Source of the DNA: Bacteroidota bacterium
Lineage (GTDB): Bacteria; Bacteroidota; Ignavibacteria; UBA10030; UBA6906
DNA length: 64,000 bases
Direction: 5' to 3'
Assembly (NCBI GenBank): GCA_019637975.1
Contig: JAHBUR010000011.1
Location: forward strand, 62,001 to 126,000
Shown here one piece after another: positions 924 through 14,443 of the stretch. The translations under genes were made by a program, and so were the position numbers. The notes below the pieces were generated by a model. It saw only the letters and a program-made list of their open reading frames with translations. It was not told the origin of the DNA and did no database searches. Numbering within the stretch: position 1 is the first letter of the stretch; each line of letters begins with the position of its first letter.

Positions 924-967
924 TGTTGTATTGGAGTGATCAGATAACGGCCGGGAATCTGAGCCGG

Positions 968-1651
968 TCAGTGGTGGTAGTTCACTTCGCCGACACGCAG
1001 CGCGATGTTAATCCGGTCTTCCTTTCTTGGTATTGCACAGGAAAACATGTCGCTGTAGGCGCAGTACGGATTGTAGGCCTTGTTCAAATCGATTGAGTAC
1101 ACAAAATCCGGGTCGGGGTGTTCCTCTCCCACTTCCACATATCTTCCGACACCGTAGGTTTCTTTTCCTGTTGTGTTGTCCGTAAACCAGACACTCAGGT
1201 TGTTTCTGAACAATTCGTAGCGCCTTTTGTCATACGGCGTGAATTTATACGCATTGATGCGAATCGTGGTTGCACTACCTGTTTCATCAGGGACATCAAA
1301 CTCGAAATATCCGTAGCGGAGATTTTTCCTCTCTTCCCCTTTCGTGCCCATCACGACAACAGTTTCGGGATTCTCGTACCTGTGCAATACGGACCGGCCT
1401 CTGAAACGGGGGTTAATTGGGAACCATTGTATCCCTGTATACTCGATGGTTGTATCTCTTTGAAACGGCGAGTCGGGGCTATCGCGGAAGAAGCCGTCAA
1501 CTTCCCGCCGGTGATTCATGTTGTCCTGAACGATGGCAAGACTGTCTTCCGGCGTCAGTAACTGCCGGGCCTCTTTCTGGCCGCAGCCGGTCAGCATAAT
1601 GGTCAACATCACGAATGCAAACATGACCTTTCCGATAGCCATCACATCCAT
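968..1651 (-). CDS. DUF1684 family lipoprotein
   Basis: 227 aa. The N-terminus is a lipoprotein signal: hydrophobic stretch followed by the lipobox LTGC at about residues 20-23. The body matches DUF1684 in its recognisable blocks: GIQWFPINPRFRG, YGYFEF, a polar TGKETYGVGRY block and the C-terminal NPYCAYSDMFSCAIP region. The family is widespread in Bacteroidota and actinobacteria, is secreted or surface-attached, and has no established function. It is preceded by its own promoter (1702-1730) with a G8 homopolymer in the spacer. It is divergent from the gene starting at 1825. Confidence 0.88.
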   Translation of the reverse strand: MDVMAIGKVMFAFVMLTIMLTGCGQKEARQLLTPEDSLAIVQDNMNHRREVDGFFRDSPDSPFQRDTTIEYTGIQWFPINPRFRGRSVLHRYENPETVVVMGTKGEERKNLRYGYFEFDVPDETGSATTIRINAYKFTPYDKRRYELFRNNLSVWFTDNTTGKETYGVGRYVEVGEEHPDPDFVYSIDLNKAYNPYCAYSDMFSCAIPRKEDRINIALRVGEVNYHH

Positions 1652-1701
1652 CTTTCATCTTTTTCTTGATTCTTAACCAACTGTCATCCAATGTGACATC
1701 A

Positions 1702-1730
1702 AAGATACACACCCCCCCCTTCACAATCAA
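1702..1730 (-). promoter_or_regulatory. Promoter of DUF1684 lipoprotein gene with G8 tract in spacer
   Basis: On the minus strand a -35 TTGATT (1730-1725) and a -10 TATCTT followed by TG (1707-1702) are separated by exactly 17 bp. The spacer holds eight consecutive G residues (C8 on the plus strand at 1712-1719). Expected transcription start is near 1695, about 45 nt before the ATG at 1651. Slippage in the G8 tract would alter the -35/-10 spacing. Confidence 0.6.
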
Positions 1731-1824
1731 CGTACACGATTCGGACGCTCACCGGTTGTGTTATCCATAAACAAAGCGTACATTCTCACAAACTTCAACC
1801 CCAATCACAACGAAAGGAGTGAGT

Positions 1825-2646
1825 ATGAGGACACGGACGGCAATCAGTTTCGCCCTGCTTGTGGCCGGTATTGTTGTATTCGGGGCCGCAATGGTTCTTA
1901 CCACAATACAATCTTTGGAACGTGTCGGAATATCACCGACCATCAGCAAGGATTGTATCTACTACAGCATTTCCGGCGGCTACCTGAATTATCCGAGCCC
2001 GTCCAGATTGAAGCAAATTGCAACCGGAGACAGGGCGGCCGCGGTTCGCGAGATTGCCGCGTTCGCGAAAGAGTTTACGAAGTCGGACGATTTCCGGAAG
2101 CGATATATCGAATACCGCGAGAATCAGAAACCGGAGCCCCCCGAAAAGCCAAAGCCGATGGCCCAGCAGCGCGCCGAATTGAAAGCGCAGATGCAACAGA
2201 GCATCAAAGAAACCGAAAGCAATATGAAGTCATTGTCTGCCGACCAACGCCCGATCCTTCAACAGACGGTGGATATGCTGAAACAACAGGTGAAGGAGTA
2301 TGACAACCCCGACAACCCGATGTTCAGCAAGGATATGGAAAATATGCAGAAGCAGATGTATGACATGACTGTTGAGGAATACAAGAAGAAACTGGCGGAA
2401 TGGGAACAGAAGTATCCAGCCGACCCGAAGCCGATGATCCGCGCCTGGCTGACAAAGTTCCTCGAGGAAACGAAGGAGGTGGACTTCTCCGCACAGCTCA
2501 AAGATGGTCAGTACGGGAAGAAGGTGTTTGTCAATCCAGCCTACGAAGGCAAGTCATCAAACTGGAAAATGGCCTACCGCGCCGGCAAGGCGGTGGTTGA
2601 AGCGGGCCGTTCTGAAGCGCGTCGATGGTTGGAGGAGCTGAAGTAG
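1825..2646 (+). CDS. Membrane-anchored hypothetical protein with coiled-coil
   Basis: 273 aa from the ATG at 1825, which sits 5 nt after an AAAGGAG ribosome binding site; a GTG two codons upstream is in frame but overlaps that site. Residues ~5-28 form one N-terminal membrane segment with no lipobox. Residues ~85-195 are rich in Glu, Lys and Gln and predict a coiled coil, preceded by a Pro-rich KPEPPEKPKP linker. The remainder is exported or periplasmic if the anchor is N-in. I do not recognise a family. The next gene follows 55 nt later on the same strand, so the two are likely co-transcribed. Confidence 0.75.
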   Translation: MRTRTAISFALLVAGIVVFGAAMVLTTIQSLERVGISPTISKDCIYYSISGGYLNYPSPSRLKQIATGDRAAAVREIAAFAKEFTKSDDFRKRYIEYRENQKPEPPEKPKPMAQQRAELKAQMQQSIKETESNMKSLSADQRPILQQTVDMLKQQVKEYDNPDNPMFSKDMENMQKQMYDMTVEEYKKKLAEWEQKYPADPKPMIRAWLTKFLEETKEVDFSAQLKDGQYGKKVFVNPAYEGKSSNWKMAYRAGKAVVEAGRSEARRWLEELK

Positions 2647-2701
2647 TCCGAGTTGCGTCGCAAGATGTATTTTTCCTAACTATCAAAAGGAGAACAACAC
2701 G

Positions 2702-3289
2702 ATGAAGCAATATCTCATGGCGCTGTTTGTGGTTGCTGCCGTGCAATCAAGCCCGGCACAGAAGATCGGCGTTCTGCCATTTGAAGACGCCTCGGGCGTT
2801 GGTGCCGCGTTCGGCGAGCAGGTGGCGAAGTTCATTCGTTCAGAGTTCTTGAAAGACAAGAAGTTCCTTCCGAAATTCATTCCGAACGAGACCGCATCAA
2901 AAACTGTTGATGTCGAGCAAGCAATTGAACTGGGCAGGAACAGCAATGTTGACTACGTCGTGATCGGCACGATTCTCGAAGCAGAGGCATCAAGCAGTTC
3001 GTCTGGACTTGGCGGCGTACGCCTGTTCGGCCAGTCTGTCGGCTCGAAACTCAAGACGGTTACGGCCGAAGTCACGTTGCAGGGCGATCTTCTCTCAGTG
3101 AAGGAGGGAAGGTTGATCGAAAGCTTCAGGGTACAGGGGAGCAACACGGATGCCTCCGTCGGCGCGAACGTCTCGACGAAATGGGGAAGCGTGAATTCCG
3201 ATAACAAGAGCGACGACTCGCCGAATGCGAAGGCGCTTCGTGAGGCCGTGGAAGACCTCGTCGAGCAGATCATAGAAAAGATCGAATAG
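2702..3289 (+). CDS. CsgG/TolB-N-like exported protein
   Basis: 195 aa with a short cleavable signal peptide (positively charged start, hydrophobic core, SSPAQ cleavage region near residue 19). The mature start KIGVLPFEDASGVG, the later AIELGRNSNVDYVVIGTI block and the length fit the CsgG/HfaB-like or TolB N-terminal-like fold seen in many periplasmic proteins of this group. A Ser-rich loop and a Gly/Leu segment follow. A strong AAAAGGAG site lies before the ATG. It lacks the lipobox of genuine CsgG, so a pore role in curli export is not supported; a periplasmic or outer-membrane accessory role is the safer reading. It converges with the C39-like gene, whose stop is only 4 nt away. Confidence 0.72.
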   Translation: MKQYLMALFVVAAVQSSPAQKIGVLPFEDASGVGAAFGEQVAKFIRSEFLKDKKFLPKFIPNETASKTVDVEQAIELGRNSNVDYVVIGTILEAEASSSSSGLGGVRLFGQSVGSKLKTVTAEVTLQGDLLSVKEGRLIESFRVQGSNTDASVGANVSTKWGSVNSDNKSDDSPNAKALREAVEDLVEQIIEKIE

Positions 3290-3293
3290 GCGT

Positions 3294-4157
3294 CTACTCG
3301 CTACTGCCGTACATCTCGTCTACGCCGTATTTGCTTGCCGCCCAGAGCGAGAGGTTGATGCAGATTGCCGCTATGGCGCGCTTCTCTTCCGATTTTTTTA
3401 CGACGAGATCATACGTGTCGGCGACAAATTTCATGTTCCTTAATACTTTGGCTACCTGCTCACGCTTCACGGCTCCGTGCCAGTACGCCACTTGATCCTT
3501 GATCATTTCGCCGTGCCTGCGGAGCAGTTCGCCCATCGGGAAGACTTGCTGGCTGAGCGGTGTACGCGGCGCGCAGATTTGCGAGAGATCGTCGAAGTAC
3601 TCGTCCCAATGCGTGGCAAACGTGTGGTTTTCGGGCCGGCGCAAATGGCGCGCCCGCTCAAGGGAGAATCGCGCTTTCGTCTTGGCGCGGAATTTCGGGA
3701 CAACAGGGTGAAGATCGTACAGCGTCTCCGTTACAGTTGGATCTCCTTCATCGACTTCTTTGTACACCCAACGCTTTTTCAGTTGCCGCCACGTCGCAAC
3801 ACACACAACAGGGGCTTTGCTGCTGTCGAGGTAGATGAAGCGCCCTTTCTCGGCGCCCACGACAGTAATCCAATGACCCCAACTGTCAACACACAGCAGC
3901 GCCGGTCGGCCTTTCTTAAGGGCAAACAACAACTCACGTTTTGCATGAAGCGGATTCTTCTCCCGCACAACACTCATTTTGCAGTCATACACGCGCGCGG
4001 CGCGCGCAAGTTGAATCTCGTCCGTTCCGGACCACCACGTTGTGCCGGCAATATCCGAGACACGCTTTTCGTTCACAAACTTTCCAAGCATGATGAGCGC
4101 GTGCTTCAAGGCAAACGGCCCGCACTGCCACTTGTTCGGTTGCGGATACAAACCCAT
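3294..4157 (-). CDS. Stand-alone C39-like cysteine peptidase domain protein
   Basis: 287 aa from the ATG at 4157 (an in-frame TTG lies at 4166). The N-terminal ~120 residues match the papain-like C39 fold: Cys12 in WQCGPFAL, His95 in SWGHWITVVG and Asp111 in YLDSSK form the expected Cys-His-Asp set. Unlike bacteriocin-processing transporters there is no ABC or membrane part and no signal peptide, so the protein is predicted cytosolic. The C-terminal ~170 residues are basic and aromatic and unrecognised; they contain several helices and no zinc motif. It might process or bind peptides, but no leader-peptide substrate gene is visible nearby. Confidence 0.72.
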   Translation of the reverse strand: MGLYPQPNKWQCGPFALKHALIMLGKFVNEKRVSDIAGTTWWSGTDEIQLARAARVYDCKMSVVREKNPLHAKRELLFALKKGRPALLCVDSWGHWITVVGAEKGRFIYLDSSKAPVVCVATWRQLKKRWVYKEVDEGDPTVTETLYDLHPVVPKFRAKTKARFSLERARHLRRPENHTFATHWDEYFDDLSQICAPRTPLSQQVFPMGELLRRHGEMIKDQVAYWHGAVKREQVAKVLRNMKFVADTYDLVVKKSEEKRAIAAICINLSLWAASKYGVDEMYGSSE

Positions 4158-4275
4158 AATTGTCAAATATCCCGTAGTTCAGAGAATCTCACCCACATCG
4201 TCATCAACGACTTCGAAGAATATGGTGGGAACAAAAAGTAGAGAAGAAGAGGAGAAAAACCAAGAACCTCGAAAC

Positions 4276-4314
4276 AAAAAAAATGCCCTATCCCGTGCGG
4301 AATAGGGCATTTTT
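4276..4314. terminator. Bidirectional intrinsic terminator
   Basis: An 11-bp perfect stem (4281-4291 with 4302-4312) around the core ATGCCCTAT / ATAGGGCAT is flanked by an A run on the left and a T run on the right, so it can terminate in both directions. In practice it ends the minus-strand lipoprotein gene, whose stop is at 4328. Confidence 0.85.
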
Positions 4315-4327
4315 CCAAAAAAAACCA

Positions 4328-4753
4328 TCACTTGGGCGGATCGTGAGGCAGTTCCTTTCCCTGCTTAACAATGTCTACTGCTTGTTTGAATCTTCTGTGA
4401 AATGTCGTCTCGGTAAGCCCCGTTGCAATGTTCGTTTGCATTTTGCGTTTCGTAACACAGGTGACCTTGACGCTGTTGTTGCCCTGAGGCTCGACCCACA
4501 CCGCGATCACCGAGCCGGCGGAGATCAAATTCTGGCCGATGGTGGTGACCATGTAATTCTCATCCTTGTGTTGCTCGATTGTTTCGGCATCCTCCCACCG
4601 CAACACCCGCAGCGCAACTTTCCATCCCTGCTCGAAATCAACAGGATACGTGACAACCGTGCCGTCGTCCTTTGCCTTGATGGCGTCCGAAATGGACGCG
4701 CAGGAGACGAGGATCAACGACGGTAAAAGGATGCTGTACAGAAATGTTTTCAT
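4328..4753 (-). CDS. Small lipoprotein of unknown function
   Basis: 141 aa. Residues 1-18 are a lipoprotein signal with the lipobox LVSC, so Cys18 would be lipidated. The mature part has a strand-rich pattern (VVTYPVDFEQGWKVALRVLR, later SVIAVWVEP and VKVTCVTKR) similar to small DUF3568-like envelope lipoproteins, but I cannot assign the family firmly. AAAGGA precedes the ATG with good spacing. It is followed directly by a strong terminator and is probably monocistronic. Confidence 0.72.
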   Translation of the reverse strand: MKTFLYSILLPSLILVSCASISDAIKAKDDGTVVTYPVDFEQGWKVALRVLRWEDAETIEQHKDENYMVTTIGQNLISAGSVIAVWVEPQGNNSVKVTCVTKRKMQTNIATGLTETTFHRRFKQAVDIVKQGKELPHDPPK

Positions 4754-4876
4754 AGTGATATTCCTTTATGTTGTTGGTGATCTGGGGGCTCTCAATTTCT
4801 TTTGGCCGCGTTGGCGCGGGCAAGCAAGACTTACTTACTCCATCCAACCGGTACCGGCACTTCCCGGGCTTTTTGT

Positions 4877-5737
4877 CTAACACCCCCTGGAGTAGAACCA
4901 TGCCGTTACCTTGTGCCCTGTTCCCCAAGCCGGAATCCATCCCGTCGCGACCACGCCCGGCATGCCGCCCTCGCACGGACTTTCTGCCAATATCTCCACG
5001 CGGAACCAGAGTGTTGTCTCGTCGCGTCGCGCTTCCAGCACATTGGCCGGCGTCTCGCGGCCGCGCGTGATAGGCACGGGTCTCGCCGCAACTCCGATGC
5101 TTGGCGCGTCCCGGAGTTGGCCATCCCACGCCTCAGTGAGATAGTTGAGCCGGTTGGGGATCAACTGCTCCAAGTGCATGAAGCGTCCGACTGATTGCGC
5201 CCGGAGCCATGCCCGTCCGCCGTCGGGGCGGCCGACGAGGTACCACTCATAGTACGATCCATAAACGGTAATGCCCGATTCCTCGTACTCGTATTCCTTT
5301 GTCTCGTAGTGCGGCAGCGAATCGGGCGGCGCCGTCACAAGAGCGAGCAAGGAATCGGGAGTGCCTTTGGCAGGCACAGCGGGCGGAATCGTGACACCGT
5401 TCGAGTCGCGCTCAGGAAGTGCGGCGATTGCCTCTTCGTGTGCCCGCTGCGTGGTGACGGTTGAAGTCCGGATCAGGAAGAAGATTGACGCAACCCCGGT
5501 TGCCATAGCGAAAACTGTCGCAACGGTTAACGGTTTGGTTTGCAGCCTGCGGCCCAGGAGAATCCCGCCGGCCAATCCGATAAGCGCGCCGGCAATGCCA
5601 TACACCGCCACTGTTGCGCCACCGGCGAGGCCGTCGCCCGACGAGACGACTAACTTGGCGGCAATCAGGCCCCCGGCGATAAACCCGATGGTCATCATGC
5701 CGGCTGAAAGAAGGAGAATGAGCAATGTACGTTTCAT
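4877..5737 (-). CDS. Membrane protein with C-terminal extracytoplasmic domain, unknown function
   Basis: 286 aa. Three hydrophobic segments at roughly residues 5-27, 38-62 and 70-92 are Gly/Ala rich. A Pro-rich linker follows, then a ~150-residue soluble domain with many aromatic residues (YGSYYEWYLVGRP, GRAWLRAQ) suggestive of an SH3-like wall- or ligand-binding fold, which is a guess. A GAGG site precedes the ATG. The spacer to 4753 holds a perfect 10-bp palindrome CCGGTACCGG (4848-4857) but no clear T-run terminator. No family recognised. Confidence 0.68.
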   Translation of the reverse strand: MKRTLLILLLSAGMMTIGFIAGGLIAAKLVVSSGDGLAGGATVAVYGIAGALIGLAGGILLGRRLQTKPLTVATVFAMATGVASIFFLIRTSTVTTQRAHEEAIAALPERDSNGVTIPPAVPAKGTPDSLLALVTAPPDSLPHYETKEYEYEESGITVYGSYYEWYLVGRPDGGRAWLRAQSVGRFMHLEQLIPNRLNYLTEAWDGQLRDAPSIGVAARPVPITRGRETPANVLEARRDETTLWFRVEILAESPCEGGMPGVVATGWIPAWGTGHKVTAWFYSRGC

Positions 5738-5840
5738 GAATACCTCGCCGCGAGTTGATTAATCGGTGATTGAAACCTTGTGAGGCTTCCGTGTGAAGGT
5801 CCATCTTCCATCTGTTGAAGATCCGTCTCCGGCGGCACGT

Positions 5841-6344
5841 CTATTCGATCCCAAGTTCTGTCCTGCGAACCCAACGAGGAGCCGACCCGATTGCTCTACT
5901 CAAAAGTAAATTCAATTGAGCTGCATGATGTTGAACGTGACGCATATTGTACAACAGCACTTCAGACACAGATAAGTCAAGCCAATCAAAGCCGCACCGC
6001 CTTTTCGCTTGATCTTCGGTCATTGAGAGAATGACGGAACGGCATTTCGCCCGACCATGTGTTAGATATTCTTTGAGTTGTTGTTTTGTGTAGATGCGAT
6101 CGGGGAGCAACCCTCGTTCATCCAACTCATCCAGCGTAAAGGGTGGCGGCGGAAGAAATCCTTTATCAGTTTCTGCCAAATAGAGATCCAAATAGAACAC
6201 CGAATGAAAAGCGATATACCAGAACTCATGAAATCCGATTTTCTTGCCCCAGAGGGATTCGGGGCAGGCATCAATTGCATTCTCCAACATATCAATCGCA
6301 GCACCAAACTGGCGCCAAATGATCTCTTTTATTTCTGCATTCAC
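5841..6344 (-). CDS. DinB-family protein
   Basis: 167 aa starting at a GTG with CGGAGA upstream. DinB/YfiT proteins are four-helix bundles that bind one metal ion through three His residues; here the candidates are the His in YIAFHSVFY (~residue 47) and the HVQHHAAQLN cluster (~residues 136-140). Family members act as thiol-dependent transferases or have no known role. It is the last of a run of seven minus-strand accessory genes and is preceded by one copy of a 40-bp dispersed repeat (6374-6413). A second, unrelated-looking DinB protein is at 15123-15620. Confidence 0.83.
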   Translation of the reverse strand: MNAEIKEIIWRQFGAAIDMLENAIDACPESLWGKKIGFHEFWYIAFHSVFYLDLYLAETDKGFLPPPPFTLDELDERGLLPDRIYTKQQLKEYLTHGRAKCRSVILSMTEDQAKRRCGFDWLDLSVSEVLLYNMRHVQHHAAQLNLLLSRAIGSAPRWVRRTELGIE

Positions 6345-6373
6345 CAGAATTTCTCCGTATCACTTTTTGCCGC

Positions 6374-6413
6374 TCGTCGCGTTGACCACGACATACTGAA
6401 TGCGTCAATGAAC
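6374..6413. repeat. 40-bp dispersed repeat, copy A
   Basis: Matches 8382-8421 at 36 of 40 positions by eye. The first 19 and the last 11 bases are identical; the four differences lie in the middle. It contains a small stem TCGT/ACGA and lies 30 bp upstream of the DinB gene start. Neither copy is coding. Confidence 0.8.
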
Positions 6414-6438
6414 TGTTGTTGACCAATACCACATATTG

Positions 6439-6457
6439 TGAAGTACTGCTCACTTCA
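6439..6457. other. Small hairpin in the spacer upstream of dinB-like gene
   Basis: TGAAGT and ACTTCA form a 6-bp stem with a 7-nt loop in the 205-bp spacer between the DUF2442 gene and the DinB gene. There is no T run, so it is not an obvious terminator; its role is unknown. Confidence 0.4.
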
Positions 6458-6549
6458 CCGCTGGAGGATTCTATCTTCTTTCGGACCCGCCGTGGGAGAC
6501 CTCTTCCTCTTGAGGAGGTGAGCCTATTGCGGAGGGAGGTTTTCGTAAA

Positions 6550-6792
6550 CTAATTTGCGGCGAGCAGACTCTTTACAGAAATATCCTCGTCCACATCTTC
6601 CCAATGAATGCCGATTCCCCTTCCAATGATACGCCAGTTCTTTCGCTGTCGTTCGTTTGCATCACGTAACCGGGGAAACCATTCCAACGGAGCAGAGACT
6701 TCCCTGCCATCCGCCAGAACGACTTTCAGCGAGTCAGATGTAAAAGACAAATCTATGACTCGTGGTTCAACCTTTACTTCTAAAGTACTCAT
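6550..6792 (-). CDS. DUF2442 domain protein, putative antitoxin-like partner
   Basis: 80 aa from the ATG at 6792, where the family alignment starts; an upstream in-frame start at 6807 is less likely. It shows the family hallmarks VVLADGREVSAPLEWFPRL and RIIGRGIGIHWEDVDEDISV. DUF2442 proteins are typically encoded right after DUF4160 genes, as here with a 26-bp overlap, in pairs widely suspected to be toxin-antitoxin or regulatory modules. That role is known only from gene association, so the antitoxin label is inference. Confidence 0.88.
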   Translation of the reverse strand: MSTLEVKVEPRVIDLSFTSDSLKVVLADGREVSAPLEWFPRLRDANERQRKNWRIIGRGIGIHWEDVDEDISVKSLLAAN

Positions 6793-7009
6793 TCCATCTC
6801 TCCTCAAATAGAGTCCTGTTTTCCTGAACCAATGTTCTCAGTTCTGAAATCTCGCCACTACGAAATCCCTCCGATTCTGCCAACTGAATCGGATTCAACC
6901 AGAATTTTGCGTACCGTTCTGCCTGCTCAACATGTATGTGTGAAGGCTCGTCCCCTTCACGGCTGAAGAAGAAGAACCTGTACCCTTTTATCCGTAGTAT
7001 TGTTGGCAC
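6767..7009 (-). CDS. DUF4160 domain protein
   Basis: 80 aa with a GTG start at 7009. The family signature is complete: MPTILRIKGYRFFFFSREGD followed by EPSHIHVEQAERYAKFWL, including the HIHV motif. It is the upstream partner of the DUF2442 gene and overlaps it. The start codon follows the likely -10 box (TATATT at 7020-7015) by only 5 nt, so the transcript may be leaderless. A palindrome overlaps this promoter (7010-7036), as expected of an autoregulated pair. Confidence 0.88.
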   Translation of the reverse strand: MPTILRIKGYRFFFFSREGDEPSHIHVEQAERYAKFWLNPIQLAESEGFRSGEISELRTLVQENRTLFEERWNEYFRSKG

Positions 7010-7036
7010 GTTCCAATATACAATTTTGTATGGAAC
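7010..7036 (-). promoter_or_regulatory. Palindromic operator overlapping DUF4160-DUF2442 promoter
   Basis: Outer arms GTTCCA and TGGAAC and inner arms TACAA and TTGTA form an interrupted palindrome of 27 bp. The likely -10 TATATT lies inside it; a poor -35 TTCCCA is 17 bp upstream. Binding of one of the two gene products here would give autoregulation; that is inference. Confidence 0.55.
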
Positions 7037-7102
7037 TTGGGAAGTGGAGATGCAGAACAGGTTAACGACCGACCATTCCGCCCGCGGATCTTCAACATAG
7101 GG

Positions 7103-7720
7103 TCAGGTTGCCGCCATTGCCGTTTCCTGCGGGAATCCCTTGAATCTCCCAACGACTGTGACAATGGCATATATGGAAAACGCAATTGAGAGTGTCAGGA
7201 ATGTCCATGTAGTGAAATCACCTGCGGTGAGCGCAATGTGAAACAGGTCTCCTTGAAAGCCGGTAACATATCCGATGGTTTCACATACCAAGTCAAAAGC
7301 AGGACGCAAGCATAGCACCATGAAGAGAAATCCGATGAGAAAAGCATTGCTGGAGAGTTTCCGCTGAAGAATGTACACACCAACTGCTATGCTCACAAGA
7401 TCGAGAACATACGGTGAGGCCGTCATAATCAACCGGGTCCATTCGCTGGTGAAGCCCTCCGATTTGATCCACGCAACAGCAATCTCTCCAACCCAAAACC
7501 TCGGGATGAGTTTGACTTCGACAATCCGACCGCCAACAATGTATGCGCCCAACAGATGGCTCAATTCATGTATAGGCGCATAGACGAAATACCACAGTAT
7601 CGGAATGGTGGACATACACGCCACCATCGTTTGTTGTTTCCAGGTTCCCCTGAGATAAAGCACAAGAAGAGGAGCAACCACGGTGACGAGTATTTCGAAG
7701 GTGATCAGGAGATGGTTCAT
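7103..7720 (-). CDS. Integral membrane HELSH protein, putative zinc metalloprotease-like
   Basis: 205 aa with about five to six hydrophobic helices. PIHELSHLLGAY at residues ~49-60, inside or next to the second helix, is an HEXXH zinc-binding motif like that of M50 site-2 or M48-like membrane proteases. I see no convincing third ligand of the NPDG type, so it may be an inactive or divergent relative. Stop codon TGA lies in the box ACCTGACCC, one base from the cassette-end box seen at 8457 and 9157. It follows the 7749-8273 gene by 28 nt and probably shares its transcript. Confidence 0.65.
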   Translation of the reverse strand: MNHLLITFEILVTVVAPLLVLYLRGTWKQQTMVACMSTIPILWYFVYAPIHELSHLLGAYIVGGRIVEVKLIPRFWVGEIAVAWIKSEGFTSEWTRLIMTASPYVLDLVSIAVGVYILQRKLSSNAFLIGFLFMVLCLRPAFDLVCETIGYVTGFQGDLFHIALTAGDFTTWTFLTLSIAFSIYAIVTVVGRFKGFPQETAMAAT

Positions 7721-7748
7721 GAGCGGGACTTGTTCCCTGTCTACGGCA

Positions 7749-8273
7749 TTAGCCTGCGCCTTTAAGGTGATTGTTCATAAGATAAGCAATGATTTTGCAG
7801 CGCTCAAAGGGAAGCCTCTCCCCGAAGATAATTTGATTCGATGCTCGTACTGTGGAATCAACCTCGCTTAGTTGGAGAACAACCGAACCAAGGGGTTCCT
7901 CATTCCGTCTTGGGAAAACGCCAACGACTTTGTCTATTTCGACAGAAGCAACCTTAAATCGCATCCCCAACAGAGAGACGCCAATGGTCAGCAGAGGATA
8001 GCGTAGGGCAATAGATTGACGCGCTATTGAGAAATACGTCGCGATCAAAAGCGTGGCAATCAAAAGCACTGCAAATGGCGTGACCTTCCCGACAAATTGG
8101 GAGGTGTCTTGATTCTCGTTGAGCACCAGGGCAATTCCGGCTACAAGCAAGAAGGAGCGCAACAAGATCAAAACGGACCAACTGAGCGAGTAATCTGCTT
8201 CAATAACAAATCCATCAGGGAGCGCTTTGAATCTGATTGCGTCTTCATCGAGTTCTTTGCGTGAAATATCCAT
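7749..8273 (-). CDS. Small membrane protein, unknown (PH-like C-terminal part possible)
   Basis: 174 aa from the ATG at 8273; the open frame continues upstream but the extension lies in the structured spacer. Two membrane helices occur near residues 32-48 and 63-82. The C-terminal cytosolic part (RYPLLTIGVSLLGMRFKVASVEIDKVVGV) has the look of bacterial PH-like domains found in two-helix membrane proteins, which is only a suggestion. A GTTAGGT box lies 10 nt before the start codon. No family firmly recognised. Confidence 0.62.
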   Translation of the reverse strand: MDISRKELDEDAIRFKALPDGFVIEADYSLSWSVLILLRSFLLVAGIALVLNENQDTSQFVGKVTPFAVLLIATLLIATYFSIARQSIALRYPLLTIGVSLLGMRFKVASVEIDKVVGVFPRRNEEPLGSVVLQLSEVDSTVRASNQIIFGERLPFERCKIIAYLMNNHLKGAG

Positions 8274-8285
8274 CTGTAAAGCACA

Positions 8286-8458
8286 ACCTAACGATAGGCA
8301 ACTACGTGGAGAGAGAGACTGCCGATTGTTTGTACTGCACGCAACTGTGTTTGACACCTCCATCGAGAGCTGCTGCCCCGGTCGTCGCGTTGACCACGAC
8401 TTATTGATTACGTCAATGAACAGATCTGCGGCCAATTCCGTGCAGCGAAGGGTTAGGC
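8286..8458 (-). repeat. attC-like spacer between GNAT and membrane-protein genes
   Basis: Read on the minus strand, this 173-bp segment begins with GCCTAAC, whose TAA is the stop codon of the GNAT gene, and ends with GTTAGGT ten nt before the next start. These match the RYYYAAC and GTTRRRY boxes of integron attC sites. Inner arms CTGCACG(C/G)AA (8335-8344 and 8436-8445) form a 10-bp inverted repeat with one mismatch. It also holds copy B of the 40-bp repeat. It is longer than most attC sites and its L boxes are not convincing, so it could be a degenerate site or coincidence. Confidence 0.42.
8382..8421. repeat. 40-bp dispersed repeat, copy B
   Basis: Second copy of the element at 6374-6413 (36/40 identical, same orientation). 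It contains a 5-bp stem GTCGT/ACGAC and lies inside the attC-like spacer, 109 bp upstream of the membrane-protein gene. Confidence 0.8.
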
Positions 8459-8974
8459 CGCATCGGATTCTCCAACGGGCAGCCACATATGCACCTTGGA
8501 CCTGAAGCCCTCCGGTGTAGCGATGGCCATTGGCTCGACGCCGAACTGCCGGAAGCCATAACGCTCATAAAGACCGACCGCCGGCGCATTGCCTTCCGTG
8601 ACGGTGAGTGTGACCACGCGAACCCCGGGACGAGACCCGGCTGCGGTTAGAGCGGCTTGAACAAGCATGGCTCCGGCACCTTGGCCGCGACTGGACTCGT
8701 GAACGAACATGCCGATGAGCTTGGCCTTGTGCCGTGTCTTGGGCTTGAGCTCGAACTCGACCGTTACGGTACCAACGAGTAAATTCTCGTGGAAGGCACC
8801 GAAGGCTTGGCTTTGGCCGCTTGGATCAGTAATACGATTGAGCCACCAAGAGTCCGGTTCCGCGGCGCGCTCTTCTGCGGTGGAAGTGAAAGCATCCGGG
8901 GCAGTGGCGTACGCGTGAAGCATCAACTCGCGGTAGCGCGGCAAATCCGATGCGATGAGCCGTGCAACGCGCAT
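8453..8974 (-). CDS. GNAT family N-acetyltransferase
   Basis: 173 aa, full GNAT length. Motif A, the acetyl-CoA pyrophosphate loop, is RGQGAGAML near residues 95-103, preceded by the strand LIGMFVHE. The later segment NAPAVGLYERYGFRQFG is the conserved C-terminal motif B with the helix and strand typical of RimI-like enzymes. Substrate unknown. The start codon lies 8 nt after a GTCAGGC box and the stop codon TAA sits inside GCCTAACCC. The gene is flanked on both sides by structured ~175-bp spacers, as a mobile cassette would be. Confidence 0.9.
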   Translation of the reverse strand: MRVARLIASDLPRYRELMLHAYATAPDAFTSTAEERAAEPDSWWLNRITDPSGQSQAFGAFHENLLVGTVTVEFELKPKTRHKAKLIGMFVHESSRGQGAGAMLVQAALTAAGSRPGVRVVTLTVTEGNAPAVGLYERYGFRQFGVEPMAIATPEGFRSKVHMWLPVGESDAA

Positions 8975-8982
8975 GGGGTGCG

Positions 8983-9158
8983 GCCTGACTGTTGATTATC
9001 CTGCAACCCGTTCCCGCAGCATTTCACGCTCTTACAGCGTGTTGTCTTGCAGGGATATTCCGTGCAGTGCGGAATATCTGTTACCTGATTTCATTCAGAA
9101 ATCGTTGGCGAAGATCCGCCTCAAGCGGGACTTTTTCCTTTTTTAAAAAGGGTTAGGT
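8983..9158 (-). repeat. Hairpin-dense attC-like spacer between HEPN-like and GNAT genes
   Basis: On the minus strand it starts with ACCTAAC, containing the HEPN-like gene's TAA stop, and ends with GTCAGGC before the GNAT start. Between these are at least six inverted repeats: CCTGCAA/TTGCAGG (9000-9006, 9047-9053) enclosing CACGCT/AGCGTG (9025-9041); an 8-bp perfect stem ATATTCCG/CGGAATAT (9055-9077); GATTTC/GAAATC (9087-9103); GGCG/CGCC (9107-9120); CCGC/GCGG (9116-9128). It carries no gene that I can support. Identity as an attC site is inference. Confidence 0.45.
9116..9142 (+). terminator. Possible plus-strand terminator inside spacer
   Basis: CCGC-CTCAA-GCGG followed by GACTTTTT resembles a weak rho-independent terminator on the plus strand. 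No plus-strand gene precedes it, so it may protect the island from antisense reading or be accidental. Confidence 0.3.
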
Positions 9159-9866
9159 ACCTCGCATCATGGTGTTTTTTTCGTAGACAAGCCTATCCCC
9201 TTCATACACCTTCACGGCGCTAATGGGTACGCGAACCCGATGGATCAGACCGTCAACGTACGGTTGATAGTCGGTCCCGCTTGGAAAAACCTCGGAGAGC
9301 CGTTCACTGCCCATGTGAACGTAGAAGAGCCTGATAACTTTAGGGTCATCCTCAGAGGCTCCCTGATGTATTATGGTGAGGTTGGCCCCACCCCGTTTGC
9401 CAGTGTCCCAGCCTCGATCGTCTGCATCTTGAATCCAAGCGGGAGGAGGCTGACCGACATGTTGATAGATGGCTTCCACAGCTTTACGGACGACGTCGAT
9501 TGCCTCATCGGCGATCTTGGCTTCAGGAAACAAATTCTGTTCGGATAGGAATCGGTGCACGTATCCCTTACGCTGCTTTTGTAAAGCGATAACTAGTTGC
9601 CAGATGCCGGTGCCCCATTCAAGAGGTTGGAATCCTTGTCTATTGATTGCTGTCTCCAAATTCTTTCGGAACCTGTAAGAGATCTTGGGTTCATTGAGAG
9701 CGTTCTGACAAGCAATCTCAAGAACAGTCCAGGCAGTTGCTACCGTCCACCGCACATATGCTCCCCGATCCCATTTATTGTTGGCTTGATGGGATAGAGC
9801 ACAAGCATGCAGGGCATCCGTCCACAGATGGTAGTGTGGATTCTCAACAATCTTTGGTTGATTCAT
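9153..9866 (-). CDS. HEPN-like protein of unknown function
   Basis: 237 aa from the ATG at 9866; the open frame extends upstream but past a GTTAGGC box, which argues for this start. The N-terminal ~140 residues are helical with an RxxxxH motif (RKGYVHR near residues 100-106), the arrangement of HEPN ribonuclease or nucleotidyl-handling domains. The C-terminal part is strand-rich (NLTIIHQGA, VIRLFYVHMGSE, VYEGDRLVYEK) and unrecognised. HEPN proteins often act in toxin-antitoxin or defence modules, but no partner nucleotidyltransferase is encoded next to it, so the role is open. Confidence 0.6.
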   Translation of the reverse strand: MNQPKIVENPHYHLWTDALHACALSHQANNKWDRGAYVRWTVATAWTVLEIACQNALNEPKISYRFRKNLETAINRQGFQPLEWGTGIWQLVIALQKQRKGYVHRFLSEQNLFPEAKIADEAIDVVRKAVEAIYQHVGQPPPAWIQDADDRGWDTGKRGGANLTIIHQGASEDDPKVIRLFYVHMGSERLSEVFPSGTDYQPYVDGLIHRVRVPISAVKVYEGDRLVYEKNTMMRGT

Positions 9867-9883
9867 TCTCTCGCTCTTTGAGC

Positions 9884-9890
9884 GCCTAAC
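9884..9890 (-). other. GTTAGGC box upstream of HEPN-like gene
   Basis: On the minus strand GTTAGGC lies 17 nt before the start of the HEPN-like gene and follows GGTGCTTAATCATA, similar to the L'-R' half of integron attC sites. Nearby is an imperfect palindrome CCGCATA/TATGCTGCGG with a two-base bulge. No matching RYYYAAC half was found further upstream. Confidence 0.35.
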
Positions 9891-10003
9891 TATGATTAAG
9901 CACCACACCGCAGCATATCCACGTGTATGCGGCAATACTCCACGCAAAGTAAAAATCCCACGATGCAGAAGCAAGGAGCCGTGTCCCTACGAAACAGGTA
10001 GTA

Positions 10004-10024
10004 GGGGCACGCCCCGGCGTGTCC
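10004..10024. repeat. REP-like GC-rich hairpin
   Basis: GGGGCACGCC and GGCGTGTCC form a near-perfect stem with a 2-nt loop. Short GC-rich palindromes with GTAGGGGC-type arms are common interspersed elements in environmental bacteria. Only one clear copy is in this window. It marks the right end of the accessory island, between 9866 and 10076, where I see no gene. Confidence 0.5.
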
Positions 10025-10075
10025 TGCTTGAGTAGACCACCCCAACTCTTTCATGCAGCCTCGTCCCATCATCAT

Positions 10076-11248
10076 CTACCAGTTGCCCGTCGCGCCTCCG
10101 CCGCCGAATTCTCCTCCTCCGCTTTCTTTCTTGACTGCCTGCGGCGCCGGACCGAGTGTTTGCGAGATGAGGAGTCCTTCGACGTTCACATCTTTCAGTT
10201 TCTCTTTGAGAATGTTCCGGTGCGTGAAGCCGTTCCGGTCCGTCTTCAGATATCGAATGGAGAGTGCCGCAATCACAAACAGCGCGGCTCCCGCAATCGT
10301 CAGCGCCGTTTCGGGAGGGACGACGGCATAGTAATACCGGAATGTCAACACGGAGGCAACGGCAGCAAGCAAACCCGTTCGCAGCAACAGATGGTCACGA
10401 ATCATCAGTCCCCGCACAACGTACACAACCGGCGTCAGAATGGTGAGTGCGTAGAAAAGGAATGCGAGCGGGATGTCTTTGCCCTCGGGGATCGGTGCGC
10501 CCATCAGTATCTCATTTCCTTCCCGCACGACGAAGTAGTTGCCGCCGCAATAGAATGCGACGAGCGCGAGAAGCTCGACCACGAAGAGACATTCTTTCCA
10601 CGGCTCCAAAGATTTTCGCTTTCCGTATTTTTGCACGAGAACATACGTCAGCGCCGCGGCAGCCATTGCAACGAAGGGAAGGACGGCTTTGGCAACCGGG
10701 CCCCCTTCCGCAAGCGGGACGAGAAGAACGGCGAGCGCGCAGAGATACGCCGCTGCTGTTACCAAACGATCTGCATAACGCATTGCGCCAAACATCAGGA
10801 AGGGGAGGGCAATGATCCAGGGAACCACGCCGGGCCGAGGCGCGTAGGTTGCGTCCGTGTACAGCAACACAACGCCGCCGATGGTAAGGCCCAGCGCGGC
10901 GTACAGCAATGCCTCTTCGATGCCGGCTTCGTAGAACTTCCGTTGCTTGACAACAGTCTCCATCGCCACGAACGAAAGAACTCCCGTCACGACAAAGAAG
11001 AATGCAAACGCCGAGTCCTTCGTTGGCGAGACGGCAAGGAAGATGATTCCGTACACTCCGAGAAGGGCAATACACGTGAACACAAACAGAACAATCCTGA
11101 TGAAGAGTGTAGGCGTGTAAAGCGGAGTCGTGTACGCCGTCTTAATCGCATCATATTGTGCGGTGGAGATGATGCCGCTTGAAAGCCATTGCTTTACCTC
11201 ACGGACAACCCGCAGCTTGCGGACCCACTCCATGTTGTGAATGATCAT
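10076..11248 (-). CDS. Polytopic membrane protein, DUF2157-like, with Gly-rich tail
   Basis: 390 aa from the ATG at 11248, which overlaps the upstream gene's stop by ATGA; the longer open frame to 11704 lies inside that gene and is rejected. The N-terminal ~45 residues are soluble and helical (VREVKQWLSSGIISTAQYDAIK), the DUF2157-type head, followed by roughly nine to ten membrane helices. The C-terminus ends in a Gly-rich tail GGGEFGGGGATGNW, similar to tails of TPM-domain membrane proteins. Function unknown. Translationally coupled to the next gene upstream, so the two probably form one complex. Confidence 0.78.
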   Translation of the reverse strand: MIIHNMEWVRKLRVVREVKQWLSSGIISTAQYDAIKTAYTTPLYTPTLFIRIVLFVFTCIALLGVYGIIFLAVSPTKDSAFAFFFVVTGVLSFVAMETVVKQRKFYEAGIEEALLYAALGLTIGGVVLLYTDATYAPRPGVVPWIIALPFLMFGAMRYADRLVTAAAYLCALAVLLVPLAEGGPVAKAVLPFVAMAAAALTYVLVQKYGKRKSLEPWKECLFVVELLALVAFYCGGNYFVVREGNEILMGAPIPEGKDIPLAFLFYALTILTPVVYVVRGLMIRDHLLLRTGLLAAVASVLTFRYYYAVVPPETALTIAGAALFVIAALSIRYLKTDRNGFTHRNILKEKLKDVNVEGLLISQTLGPAPQAVKKESGGGEFGGGGATGNW

Positions 11249-12198
11249 CGCCGTGCCAGGAATTTCTTGTAATGGAAAATGAAATAGATAACGGCCCCGC
11301 ACGACACAACGAAATAGAAGAAGAGACTGAATGCTTGATGAAGGAAATCCGACAACATGTACGTGAGGCCGATGTATCCGTACACGCAGGAAAGAAGGAG
11401 GAAAAGAAACGATTGCTCTTTGCGTGCGTAGAGAATCCCCGCTGTGCAGAACAGCGCGAGAAGCAAAAAGTACACGATGCTTGGATGGAGCGTGAAGACA
11501 GCAGCGAGGCAGGCGATGAAAAGAATGTTGGAACCGAGCGCCAAGGAAGTGAATGTGAAATGTCTCTTGATGCCTGCGCGGTCGAGCAGCAGCGCCGCCG
11601 CACAAACCACAATGCCGAATAACAATCCGGTGTAGATAAGTCCTTCGGAGCGGAAAATTCCCTCTTTCATCAATTCCACCGGCGAGACGGTCAGGCCGAG
11701 CCATGATGCGAGTCCGGCAATGCCTAACGAGAGAACTCCCCGATGATCAAACGAATATGCGAGAACGAGAAACGCTACCGCGGGAAGTAACGCGCTCAAC
11801 TGCCACCTTGTTCCGAAGATTTCATACTGGAATTGGATGTAGCCGACGATGATGGCGAAGAGCAGACATCCCAACAAGAGAACATACTCATACAAAGAAC
11901 CGGGGCTTTCCACTTCGCCGTTGGAGTAGGGAGGCTTTCGCTTTGCGGCGTACCCGAAACAGACGATCATCAAAAGAGTCAGCGCGCCGATGATTGCCTG
12001 ATGGCCGATCGTGTCAATGTTCTGGTAGATGATGACTCCAAGCCCGGCGGTGAAGAGCAGCACCCCGAGGTAGAGCATGCTTCTCAGCTCGTAGTAGAGG
12101 GAGAAGAGGGATTTGTCATGGATGCGCGAGAGGAACGCTTTCTGCGCGTCTGTGATGAGTCCCCCGGAATGCAGGGAGTTGAGCGTTTCCGAATTCAT
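11245..12198 (-). CDS. Polytopic membrane protein, DUF2157-like
   Basis: 317 aa. A soluble head of about 38 residues (LHSGGLITDAQKAFLSRIHDK) resembles the DUF2157 N-terminal helix pair, then about nine hydrophobic helices up to the basic end HYKKFLARR. It is first of the coupled pair (4-bp ATGA overlap with the gene ending at 10076) and shares its layout, which suggests an old duplication. No substrate-binding motif seen; function unknown. Confidence 0.78.
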   Translation of the reverse strand: MNSETLNSLHSGGLITDAQKAFLSRIHDKSLFSLYYELRSMLYLGVLLFTAGLGVIIYQNIDTIGHQAIIGALTLLMIVCFGYAAKRKPPYSNGEVESPGSLYEYVLLLGCLLFAIIVGYIQFQYEIFGTRWQLSALLPAVAFLVLAYSFDHRGVLSLGIAGLASWLGLTVSPVELMKEGIFRSEGLIYTGLLFGIVVCAAALLLDRAGIKRHFTFTSLALGSNILFIACLAAVFTLHPSIVYFLLLALFCTAGILYARKEQSFLFLLLSCVYGYIGLTYMLSDFLHQAFSLFFYFVVSCGAVIYFIFHYKKFLARR

Positions 12199-12244
12199 CT
12201 ACTCTGAAGAGGTAAAGAGAGTTTATATGAAGAACGACTTGTCC

Positions 12245-12268
12245 GGCAGCAGCCGGATTGTTGCTGCC
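12245..12268. other. Hairpin between HPF-like gene and membrane-protein gene
   Basis: GGCAGCA and TGCTGCC form a perfect 7-bp stem with a 10-nt loop. No T run follows on either strand. It lies after the HPF-like gene on the minus strand and could act as a 3' end stabiliser or weak terminator. Confidence 0.4.
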
Positions 12269-12300
12269 AGACGACATCACTCCGGCAACGCTGAACTGAT

Positions 12301-12615
12301 CTACCGCTTGGCGAGTTTCCCGAGTTTGCTGTCGATGGCGCGCTCGAGCTTGGCTGCGGCTCCGTCAATCGCCAGCTCCAACGTCGGTGCTTGATGTTTG
12401 ACTGCGATCGGCTGGAGTCCGGCGAGCCGGGCTTCCATCAAGCATCGTTTGTCGTCGCCGACGGTTTTGTGGCTGTTCTCGTCACCGAGGTGAACTTCAA
12501 CGCGGGTCACCCTCGTGCTGAAACGATCAAGCGTACTCTTGATGGTATCTTCGACAAGCTTGGTCAGTGTGATGCTGCCGTCAACGTGTCTGTCTGTATT
12601 GACCTGAATGTGCAT
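12301..12615 (-). CDS. HPF/RaiA-like ribosome-associated protein
   Basis: 104 aa from the ATG at 12615, the size of short hibernation factors. The pattern MHIQVNTDRHVDGS, VTRVEVHLGDENSHK and the C-terminal AAAKLERAIDSKLGKL helix match the S30AE/RaiA fold (beta-alpha-beta3-alpha), which sits in the ribosomal decoding cleft and stops translation during stress. It begins 37 nt after nrfH on the same strand and likely shares the nrfA promoter, which would tie ribosome protection to nitrite or anoxic growth. The longer upstream frame lies inside nrfH and is not used. Confidence 0.8.
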   Translation of the reverse strand: MHIQVNTDRHVDGSITLTKLVEDTIKSTLDRFSTRVTRVEVHLGDENSHKTVGDDKRCLMEARLAGLQPIAVKHQAPTLELAIDGAAAKLERAIDSKLGKLAKR

Positions 12616-12652
12616 TCTTTGATTTCTCCCTTGATCAATCTGATTGGAAAAT

Positions 12653-13096
12653 TCAAAACGCGTGTCCCACACCTTTGTGGCAATCGAAACAACGCATACC
12701 TGTGTCGCTGACACCGTGCGAGATGTTCGAGACGGTGCTGACATGGCATCGGATGCAGTTCGCTTCGACAGTCCGCTGTCCGATGGGGGCAAGCCGGAAA
12801 ATCTGGGGATTTTCGAACGTGAAGACATACGAATGCCGGAAGCCGTTCTCCGCCTTTACGTAGTATTTTGTGATGGGGCCGTCGGGGACGTGACAGCCGT
12901 TGCAGCTTACCGAACGATGGCTCGAAACTTCCCACGCAATGAAATTATCGCGCATCACATGGCAGTTGATGCACGCCTTCGGATCATCCATCAGATAGGA
13001 ATACCCCTTCGCGTAGTAAAAGGTGTACGCGCTCAATCCAATCACAATCCCCGGAAGAGCAATAAGCAAGAGTCCCAGAAGCCGCTTGATATTCAT
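12653..13096 (-). CDS. nrfH: Cytochrome c nitrite reductase small subunit NrfH
   Basis: 147 aa membrane-anchored tetraheme quinol oxidase. One N-terminal helix (residues ~7-26) anchors it on the periplasmic side. Four CXXCH heme sites are visible at about residues 42-46 (CINCH), 65-69 (CNGCH), 114-118 (CIRCH) and 136-140 (CFDCH). The CINCHVM site matches the NapC/NirT family first heme with Met ligand. It passes electrons from menaquinol to NrfA. It starts 6 nt after the nrfA stop; the usual gene order in other bacteria is nrfH before nrfA, so the order here is reversed. Confidence 0.95.
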   Translation of the reverse strand: MNIKRLLGLLLIALPGIVIGLSAYTFYYAKGYSYLMDDPKACINCHVMRDNFIAWEVSSHRSVSCNGCHVPDGPITKYYVKAENGFRHSYVFTFENPQIFRLAPIGQRTVEANCIRCHVSTVSNISHGVSDTGMRCFDCHKGVGHAF

Positions 13097-13102
13097 GACG
13101 CG

Positions 13103-14443
13103 TTATTCGGCTGCGTATGAAACTCGCTGCCCGCGCGTGCCGCGCGTGGCAAGTACTTTGTAGGCCTCAAGCTCGGATTGCCGCGCATAGTCGATGGCGT
13201 CCCCGAGAATTCGTGCAACCTCCTGCGAACTGTGAAATCCCATGCTGTTTTCCGCGCTGATGAAGTCCCAGCGCATTTGGGATTTCCTGTGCAACTGGCG
13301 CGCAGCCTTTAATTCTTCGTCTGTTGCTCCTGCCTGCATCGCGGCCTTGATGCCGTCAATAGCCGCAATGATGGCGATCTCAGAGCGCTGCATCAAACCG
13401 TATGTCCTGTCTTGGATTTGCAGAACACGTTCCCGCATTTCTGTTTCGCTTTGGCGGTGACACGTCAGGCAGGCGTTTGTGAGATTTCCGAGCGGACTTC
13501 GAATCCAATGATCCGTCACCTTGATGGCCCCCTCCCTCCGATACGGCATGTGGCAATCTGCGCAGCTGACGTTGGAGCGGGCGTGAATTCCAGTCGACCA
13601 GATTTCGAATTCTGGATGTTGCATCTTGATCATCGGGGCCTTCGATTCGGCGTGTGTCCAGTCGGAGAAGCCTTCCTTCTCATAGTACGCCTCGATGCTG
13701 TCGAGCACTACGCCCTTGTCCCACGGAAACGTAAGGTACTTGCCCGGTCCTTTGAAATAGTATTCAACGTGGCACTGCCCGCACACATAGCTTCGCATCT
13801 CCTGGCGGGAGGCCTTGGAGATGTCAATCCCGCGGCGCTGCATTGCTTCCTTGAATGCAATGCGAGTCACCTTCAACTCCATCGTTTTGGAATCATGACA
13901 GTCGGCACAAACCACCGAGTGCTTGAAGCCGTGTTTCTCCACCAACTCCTTTACGGGAGTCTTGTAGAACAATTCTGCACCGTACTGCTCGACGAACGCC
14001 GGCACTTGCGAGCTTTTGCACGTCATGCAGGTTCCGGGCTTCTCATCTCCGAGACGCGGCGATGCAAGCATATCCTTCAGGGCGTTCATGTGTCCGCGTT
14101 CTTCCCTGTACTCGACCGAGAAGGGGTATCCCGCAAACAGGCGGCGATAATCGGGATGCTTTTCGAGTTTAGAGAATGCTTCCGAACCGCCGTAGCGTCC
14201 CCACTTGCTGTACTCATCCATCTCGCTTGTTCGCACGGTTCGCATGTATGCCTCGTACTCCCGGGGGAAGTTCACCTTCCATGCATCGGGATCGGGTTCG
14301 CCAGGCGGAATCTCCACAATCCGCATGTAGGTGAGCCTGCCTTCCTGTTGCCGCTCAAAGATGTTGATCAAGAGTGCTGCAACGAGAATCGTGACAAGTA
14401 TGCTTCCGCCGAATGTGAGCCAGCGTTTTGTACGAGTGTTCAT
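13103..14443 (-). CDS. nrfA: Ammonia-forming cytochrome c nitrite reductase NrfA
   Basis: 446 aa periplasmic pentaheme enzyme reducing nitrite to ammonium with six electrons. The active-site heme has the special CXXCK motif (CMTCK, 139-143); the others are CXXCH at 179-183, 221-225, 294-298 and 325-329. The catalytic surroundings are present: VEYYF and KMQHPEFE around the calcium site and ENSMGFHS near the C-terminal end. An uncleaved or cleaved N-terminal helix lies at residues ~10-28. It leads an operon with nrfH and an HPF-like gene and has a near-consensus promoter at 14500-14528. Confidence 0.97.
   Translation of the reverse strand: MNTRTKRWLTFGGSILVTILVAALLINIFERQQEGRLTYMRIVEIPPGEPDPDAWKVNFPREYEAYMRTVRTSEMDEYSKWGRYGGSEAFSKLEKHPDYRRLFAGYPFSVEYREERGHMNALKDMLASPRLGDEKPGTCMTCKSSQVPAFVEQYGAELFYKTPVKELVEKHGFKHSVVCADCHDSKTMELKVTRIAFKEAMQRRGIDISKASRQEMRSYVCGQCHVEYYFKGPGKYLTFPWDKGVVLDSIEAYYEKEGFSDWTHAESKAPMIKMQHPEFEIWSTGIHARSNVSCADCHMPYRREGAIKVTDHWIRSPLGNLTNACLTCHRQSETEMRERVLQIQDRTYGLMQRSEIAIIAAIDGIKAAMQAGATDEELKAARQLHRKSQMRWDFISAENSMGFHSSQEVARILGDAIDYARQSELEAYKVLATRGTRGQRVSYAAE

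Follow-up and report, generated by a model that had tools for sequence, protein, structure and literature searches.

What kind of element is the spacer at positions 8983-9158 of the window, by which the whole analysed stretch of 64,000 nucleotides is meant, and why is it so rich in hairpins? An earlier note made from the letters alone had described at least six inverted repeats in this spacer and had suggested a folded recombination site, a small RNA or a repeat element. The spacer was evaluated by its folding, its neighbouring genes and its counterparts in related genomes.

Hairpins and Folding of the Spacer

All six named stems were present in the sequence and are listed below, one of them also in a longer reading.

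9000-9053, stem with an outer perfect pairing of 7 bp
9025-9041, perfect stem of 6 bp; its arms CACGCT/AGCGTG are also found in genome G002 of the same genus, with a different loop
9055-9077, perfect stem of 8 bp, or of 9 bp if read as 9054-9078
9054-9078, perfect hairpin of 9 bp, GATATTCCG-TGCAGTG-CGGAATATC
9087-9103, perfect stem of 6 bp
9107-9120, perfect stem of 4 bp
9116-9128, perfect stem of 4 bp

The two 4-bp stems were unremarkable when taken alone. The comparison of minimum free energies with shuffled sequences, which the note had proposed, bore out the structure of the whole, and spacer 8983-9158 was more stable than its shuffles as RNA on both strands and as DNA. The z value was -3.84 for the RNA fold of the plus strand (0 of 200 dinucleotide shuffles were as good), -3.91 for that of the minus strand (1 of 200) and -4.23 for the DNA fold of the plus strand (0 of 200). 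The DNA stability was equalled by 3 of 251 window tiles of similar GC content, one of which (8977) overlaps the spacer.

Such stability could be a property of the transcript. The hairpins might serve as structured RNA or as a terminator, either at the 3' end of the transcript of the gene on one side of the spacer (cassette 1 below) or within the GNAT leader on the other side. The fold z values near -3.9 on both strands agree with this explanation, and so do the terminator-like matches on the plus strand, of which there were two where 0.9 would be expected. However, these matches are opposite to both genes, and none was found on the minus (gene) strand; an intrinsic terminator was rejected on these counts. 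No Rfam family was matched at the gathering threshold over the whole window, and the suggested small RNA was left without support. Moreover, the conserved stretch described below stops at the cassette boundary, as expected of a recombination site. We consider an RNA element of this kind very unlikely.

The suggestion of a repeat element was not borne out by a nucleotide search of the organism's own genome, which gave no second full-length copy of the spacer. Only 8 short and weak matches of 15-33 bases were obtained beside the spacer itself, and a high-copy repeat was discarded. The statement that neither strand codes for a protein was agreed with; the one listed ORF that spans most of the spacer (8955-9146, plus strand) overlaps the GNAT gene on the opposite strand.

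Organization of the Cassette Array

The features of the spacer and of the genes around it are as follows.

4776-10075, minus strand, insert of minus-strand genes, about 5.3 kb; not at the same locus in G002
9884-9907, minus strand, attI-like core no. 1, TGTGGTGCTTAATCATAGTTAGGC, directly before cassette 1; second-best matrix score in the window
9153-9866, minus strand, cassette 1 ORF, 237 aa
9152-9158, minus strand, R''-type box ACCTAAC, which contains the TAA stop of cassette 1
9096-9151, minus strand, linker with small hairpins between R'' and the attI-like segment, about 56 nt
8978-9095, minus strand, attI-like segment no. 2, 76% identity over 119 bp to the intI-adjacent site of G002
9078-9095, plus strand, intI-promoter-side remnant; CTGTTACCTGATTTCATT matches CTGTTACCTGTTTTCGTT of G002, whose next TATATA is not kept
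8984-9005, minus strand, attI core of the spacer, TGCAGGATAATCAACAGTCAGG; presumed crossover triplet GTC (8989-8987), not GTT
8453-8974, minus strand, cassette 2, GNAT acetyltransferase, starting 8 bp past the R'-type box GTCAGGC (8989-8983)
8452-8458, minus strand, R''-type box GCCTAAC of cassette 2, which contains its stop
8286-8292, minus strand, R'-type box GTTAGGT, which precedes the next ORF (7749-8276)

Read on the plus strand, the spacer runs from GCCTGAC to GTTAGGT, and its edges are thus two cassette-end boxes. A 7-base box alone is no evidence, because GTTRRRY occurred in the window at chance frequency (102 observed, 102.5 expected). The ORF of cassette 1 starts 17 bp past GTTAGGC (9890-9884), and TAATCATAGTTA of the core at 9907-9884 is also present in the intI-adjacent sites of G030 and G058. 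The protein of cassette 1 had no match in Pfam, NCBIfam or PADLOC, and none of 10 cassette proteins matched a defence gene in PADLOC. The start of the linker, CCTAACCCTT followed by AAGG within 20 bases, recurs behind one cassette on contig C20 of the same genome; no further occurrence of this pattern was found in three genomes of the genus. Searched with two IntI queries, window 1-14000 showed no significant similarity and no integrase remnant.

The homologous blocks that flank the array are about 18 bp apart in G002 versus 5.3 kb here. Since the G002 locus is without the array, the array was either inserted here or lost in G002. Eight genes tested from the insert gave no match by tblastn (E 1e-4), either in the searched stretch of G002 or in five others.

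Several observations concern the neighbourhood. The best plasmid relative of the GNAT cassette protein (8453-8974) was 58% identical and came from Comamonas antarctica. Inside the insert (window 6550-7009), a DUF4160 gene overlaps the DUF2442 gene behind it. Two genes near the insert (12653-14443) have CxxCH-type motifs and are 93-95% identical in G002; by eye, we take this pair to be nitrite-reductase-like. An element of about 45 nt (GTTCATTGACGCAATCAGTATGTCGTGGTCAACGCGACGAC) occurs at four places in this genome with 76-89% identity, namely at window 6370-6413 and 8374-8422, at 10828-10875 of locus L062 and at 10582-10629 of locus L063, each in a spacer between cassette-like genes. A repeat common to 8286-8458 and 6370-6413 was considered as an explanation of the spacer and rejected; it is this separate element instead.

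Match to the Integrase-Adjacent Site of G002

The minus strand of the window at 9095-8978 and G002 share 76.5% identity along 119 bp, with an E value of about 1e-19 against a small local database. The match lies between the intI gene (51725-52666, minus strand) and the end of G002 contig C38, which is CAADGV010000038.1 of uncultured Chlorobi bacterium isolate CHB1. The similarity spans the DNA from the promoter side of intI to the first cassette bases. A 17-mer of the spacer (GGGTTGCAGGATAATCA, up to two mismatches) was found at three places in this genome and at three in G002, and one of the latter is about 160 bp from the start of the integron integrase (TIGR02249, 432.6 bits). The similarity came from local alignment only; G002 was not reported by a nucleotide search of 21 family genomes with the spacer. 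Furthermore, a search of 391 genomes with the G002 site gave a match in at least 2 of 391, scoring at most two candidates per genome among the matches listed, and this genome was not reported among those matches. The segment is labelled attI because of this homology and because of the position of the G002 site beside intI. Its core had the best matrix score of the window, but its crossover triplet is GTC rather than GTT, and the window lacks significant IntI similarity from 1 to 14000.

According to these comparisons, the spacer is probably (at about 0.78) a minus-strand junction of two integron cassettes that holds an attI-like site, with no intI beside it.

The sequence on the promoter side of the intI gene in G002 (AGCTGTTACCTGTTTTCGTTTTATATAGTAGG) also recurs before another gene of this genome, with 89% identity over 37 bp (L010 459-495 on contig C3 of G000, and L033 1022-1058). 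Judged by sequence, it is possibly a shared operator.

Core Matrix and Integrase-Adjacent Sites

The attI core was described by a two-block matrix. A survey of 60 genomes of the order gave 13 intI genes, one of which was cut by its contig, and both flanks of the other 12 were inspected; the assemblies are drafts, and several intI genes are near contig ends. Seven intI-adjacent sites, chosen by eye in the same flanks and not including the spacer site, served for training, and the matrix was tested by leave-one-out. At 7 of 12 intI loci, the site was matched by only 0-4 of 200 background windows (0 for G002, G026, G030, G045 and G058, 1 for G015 and 4 for G029). The matrix failed at the other five (G035, G024, G048, G025 and the organism's own IntI on contig C38, where 95 of 200 background windows scored as well). 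Outside the training set were G045 and two integrase loci of G279; the G279 loci scored 26.8 and 17.7, and a later locus, in G311, only 11.0.

On both strands of the 64-kb window, the spacer site scored best (17.1), the site at 9907-9884 second (15.8) and the third site 10.4. The order was kept when G002 was dropped from the training set (15.0, 13.8 and 10.7). When G002, G026 and G015 were all dropped, which left four training sites, the spacer site came fifth and the 9907 site was outside the top five. The R' ends of ten attC sites of G030 and G058, in both readings, scored at most 3.6; the core therefore separates attI from attC.

Of 9 intI-adjacent sites, 5 had a hairpin of at least 9 bp no more than 100 nt from the core, versus 6 of 500 random stretches. 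The hairpin was short at the 9907 site (6 bp) and on C20 (5 bp), and it was below 9 bp at 20 of 24 dispersed sites. The G002 counterpart of hairpin 9054-9078, GCTATTCCG...CGGAATAGC, lies at the same place with one pair changed on both sides. Covariation in relatives, which the note had also proposed as a check, was evaluated for five hairpins of G323, G036 and G026 and was modest only: 4 pairs were changed on both sides (75 of 500 shuffles reached the same), the covariation score was reached by 12 of 500 shuffles, and 85% of cells were paired (38 of 500). Three whole-site alignments were tried and were too gapped for use.

The genome has one IntI above the family cut-off, on contig C38, and this integrase is 49% identical to that of G002.

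Comparison with attC Sites

A canonical attC, the first reading of the spacer, was rejected after an end-pairing test and the G002 match. The 25-nt ends of the spacer were paired as well by 86 and 214 of 300 shuffles on the two strands, whereas all eight attC control sites of G030 were matched by at most 2 of 300. Two of four other attC controls were less clean (6 of 300 for G058 and 58 of 300 for G015), and the test is therefore not infallible. For the candidate at 8286-8458, 66 and 49 of 300 shuffles were as good; for a candidate on contig C42, 298 and 269 of 300. With the ends of 8983-9158 and 8286-8458 not convincingly paired, the array falls short of a CALIN, taken as at least two attC sites without an integrase.

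An ordinary attC of cassette 1, long and folded, bounded by R'' (9158-9152) and R' (8989-8983) and belonging to a CALIN, would still account for part of the data. The R'' box ACCTAAC fits RYYYAAC and holds the stop, the R' box GTCAGGC is one mismatch from GTTRRRY, and the spacer is placed between two ORFs. G030, of the same order, has attC sites of 155-197 nt, and the RNA fold of the plus strand pairs the spacer ends over 7 bp. The ends are open in the DNA fold, however, as well as being unpaired beyond shuffles; moreover, the DNA matched over 119 bp adjoins intI, and the core is missing from attC ends. Such an attC is unlikely.

The suggestion of a folded recombination site stands in its second half, since 9095-8978 on the minus strand matches the attI of an integron of the same genus and lies between two cassettes. 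The folded half is divided: several relatives also have the strongest hairpin (9054-9078) close to attI, but no end-to-end fold like that of attC was found.

Dispersed Cores Across the Order

Among 98 genomes of the order, 15 contained the pattern TGCAGNATAATNAANAGTTAGG with up to two mismatches, at 28 places in all, versus 4 for the reversed control. Five matches each were found in G041 and G323, and three each in G053 and G054. Intact IntI was present at 2 of the 28 loci, fragments at 2 (the last 23 residues in G036 and 43 residues in G037) and weak similarity (E 0.044) at 1; the remaining 23 had none within the inspected flanks of about 1.5 kb, sometimes less, on either side. Ten of the 15 genomes were without an IntI above the family cut-off. 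The first ORF past the core ended in RYYYAACC at 12 of 21 evaluable sites (two of the 12 in this genome); for comparison, 1 of 133 background ORFs ended in this way. A further 7 sites were left out, as they had no complete 90-aa ORF with a start within 120 nt. Several ORF ends read CCTAACCAG(T/G)CGCTCAAGCTGAC and resemble the attC starts of the G030 array.

In this genome, contig C42 carries a cassette after a 23-residue IntI tail (65% identity, E 0.002), with a core of poor matrix score (5.6 to 7.1), and contig C20 carries a cassette behind a core with two mismatches. At two attI-like loci, L063 9633-9701 in this genome and L089 1303-1371 in G036, all that is left of IntI is its final 23 residues, immediately ahead of the site.

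The dispersal could be taken to mean that the G002 match is a common leftover of a different mobile element and no integrase site. Similar cores are indeed dispersed, several per genome and mostly without IntI beside them, and the sites of G041 and G053 have other kinds of shared upstream stretches. Against this, the core was found within about 300 nt of an intact IntI in eight genomes (G002, G015, G026, G029, G030, G045, G058 and, twice, G279), and cassette-type ORF ends lie behind the dispersed copies. Such a leftover is highly improbable.

A wider reading of the same data is tentative and rather doubtful. The attI sites of the order would be a family of docking sites that are dispersed, several to a genome; any one of them could hold cassettes, and one IntI or a related recombinase would act on them in trans. 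The upstream hairpin would be part of the site, and the spacer would be one such site caught in an array. As separate observations, tyrosine recombinases at L118-L122 and L129-L131 (G036, G037, G041, G047 and G053) matched the integron-integrase model with 131-148 bits, at 2-180 and mostly again from about 232, the part between being unmatched. Some of these genomes hold several attI-like sites.

Discussion

In functional integrons, the attI core is the binding site of IntI, which joins circular cassettes to it behind the G of GTT. On the reading of the spacer as a cassette junction with an attI-like site, its first third would be the end of cassette 1, with the stop inside an R''-type box followed by small hairpins, and its last two thirds would be an attI of the type that adjoins the integrase gene in the sister species. 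The GNAT cassette would then occupy the exact place of a captured cassette, and its joining by IntI is assumed from known integrons. With the second attI-like core before cassette 1, the order would be attI - ORF - attI - GNAT. The junction may have arisen by a rearrangement in which attI replaced the rest of the attC of cassette 1, as in a delta-attI cassette; alternatively, a deletion may have taken intI and the rest of that attC and joined two arrays. The spacer site may be weaker for its GTC triplet, although the usual crossover would place the altered base in the half that the cassette contributes.

The nearest known arrangement is the delta-attI cassette of class 1 and class 2 integrons, which consists of an ORF, a piece of attI instead of attC, and the next cassette (PMC12901181). 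The examples given there include attI - ORF - attI orders and a 244-nt piece of attI2, and those tested were recombined by IntI1. Cassettes with only the R'' of attC left are another unusual type in that account, and an origin of delta-attI by crossover of attI L with attC R'' is proposed there and credited to Partridge et al. The present array is alike in its attI - ORF - attI - GNAT order and in its R'' box followed by the attI-like 9095-8978 in place of an attC. The delta-attI cassettes belong to mobile integrons with resistance genes, and the attI pieces quoted there are 100% identical to attI1 or attI2 (PMC12901181), whereas the present array is chromosomal, has no intI beside it, carries an attI piece with 76% identity to a sister species and has a hairpin-rich linker of about 56 nt. 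As to the source of this piece, a different attI-like core (9907-9884) precedes cassette 1, and no attI could be recognised for the C38 integrase.

Other known systems resemble the array in part. CALINs, as outlined in PMC9024848, are clusters of attC without an integrase, and the array shares with them cassette-like genes in one direction and no integrase nearby. However, attC sites define a CALIN, whereas here the tested ends lack an attC-type fold and the sites that can be recognised resemble attI. The attG sites likewise hold single cassettes at genomic sites without intI; they are described in PMC12901181 as divergent from classical att sites, whereas the spacer is recognisably attI-like. 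The attI sites of G002, G026, G030, G058 and G279 have the core TGCAGNATAATNAATAGTTAGG or TCTAATCATAGTTAG, a cassette start right behind it and, in several, an upstream hairpin, as does the spacer. The spacer differs from them in having no intI beside it and GTC for GTT. Sites of type attI outside class 1 integrons are described in PMC9024848 as poorly characterised and as not detected by IntegronFinder 2.0. At the level of titles and abstracts, which is no proof of absence, the literature named no dispersed or integrase-less attI in relatives among the Chlorobi and Ignavibacteria.

The observation stands, and the spacer probably carries an attI-like site fused to the end of a cassette, within a chromosomal array that lacks an integrase; it belongs to a dispersed set in the order. 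With a core that can be spotted in the absence of the integrase gene, one can search for integron platforms that have lost intI or depend on an integrase encoded elsewhere. Live sites would allow cassettes to be captured at many places of one chromosome; dead ones would be fossils that date the loss of the integrase. An orphan attI, if true, would show how gene-capture platforms persist without their enzyme.
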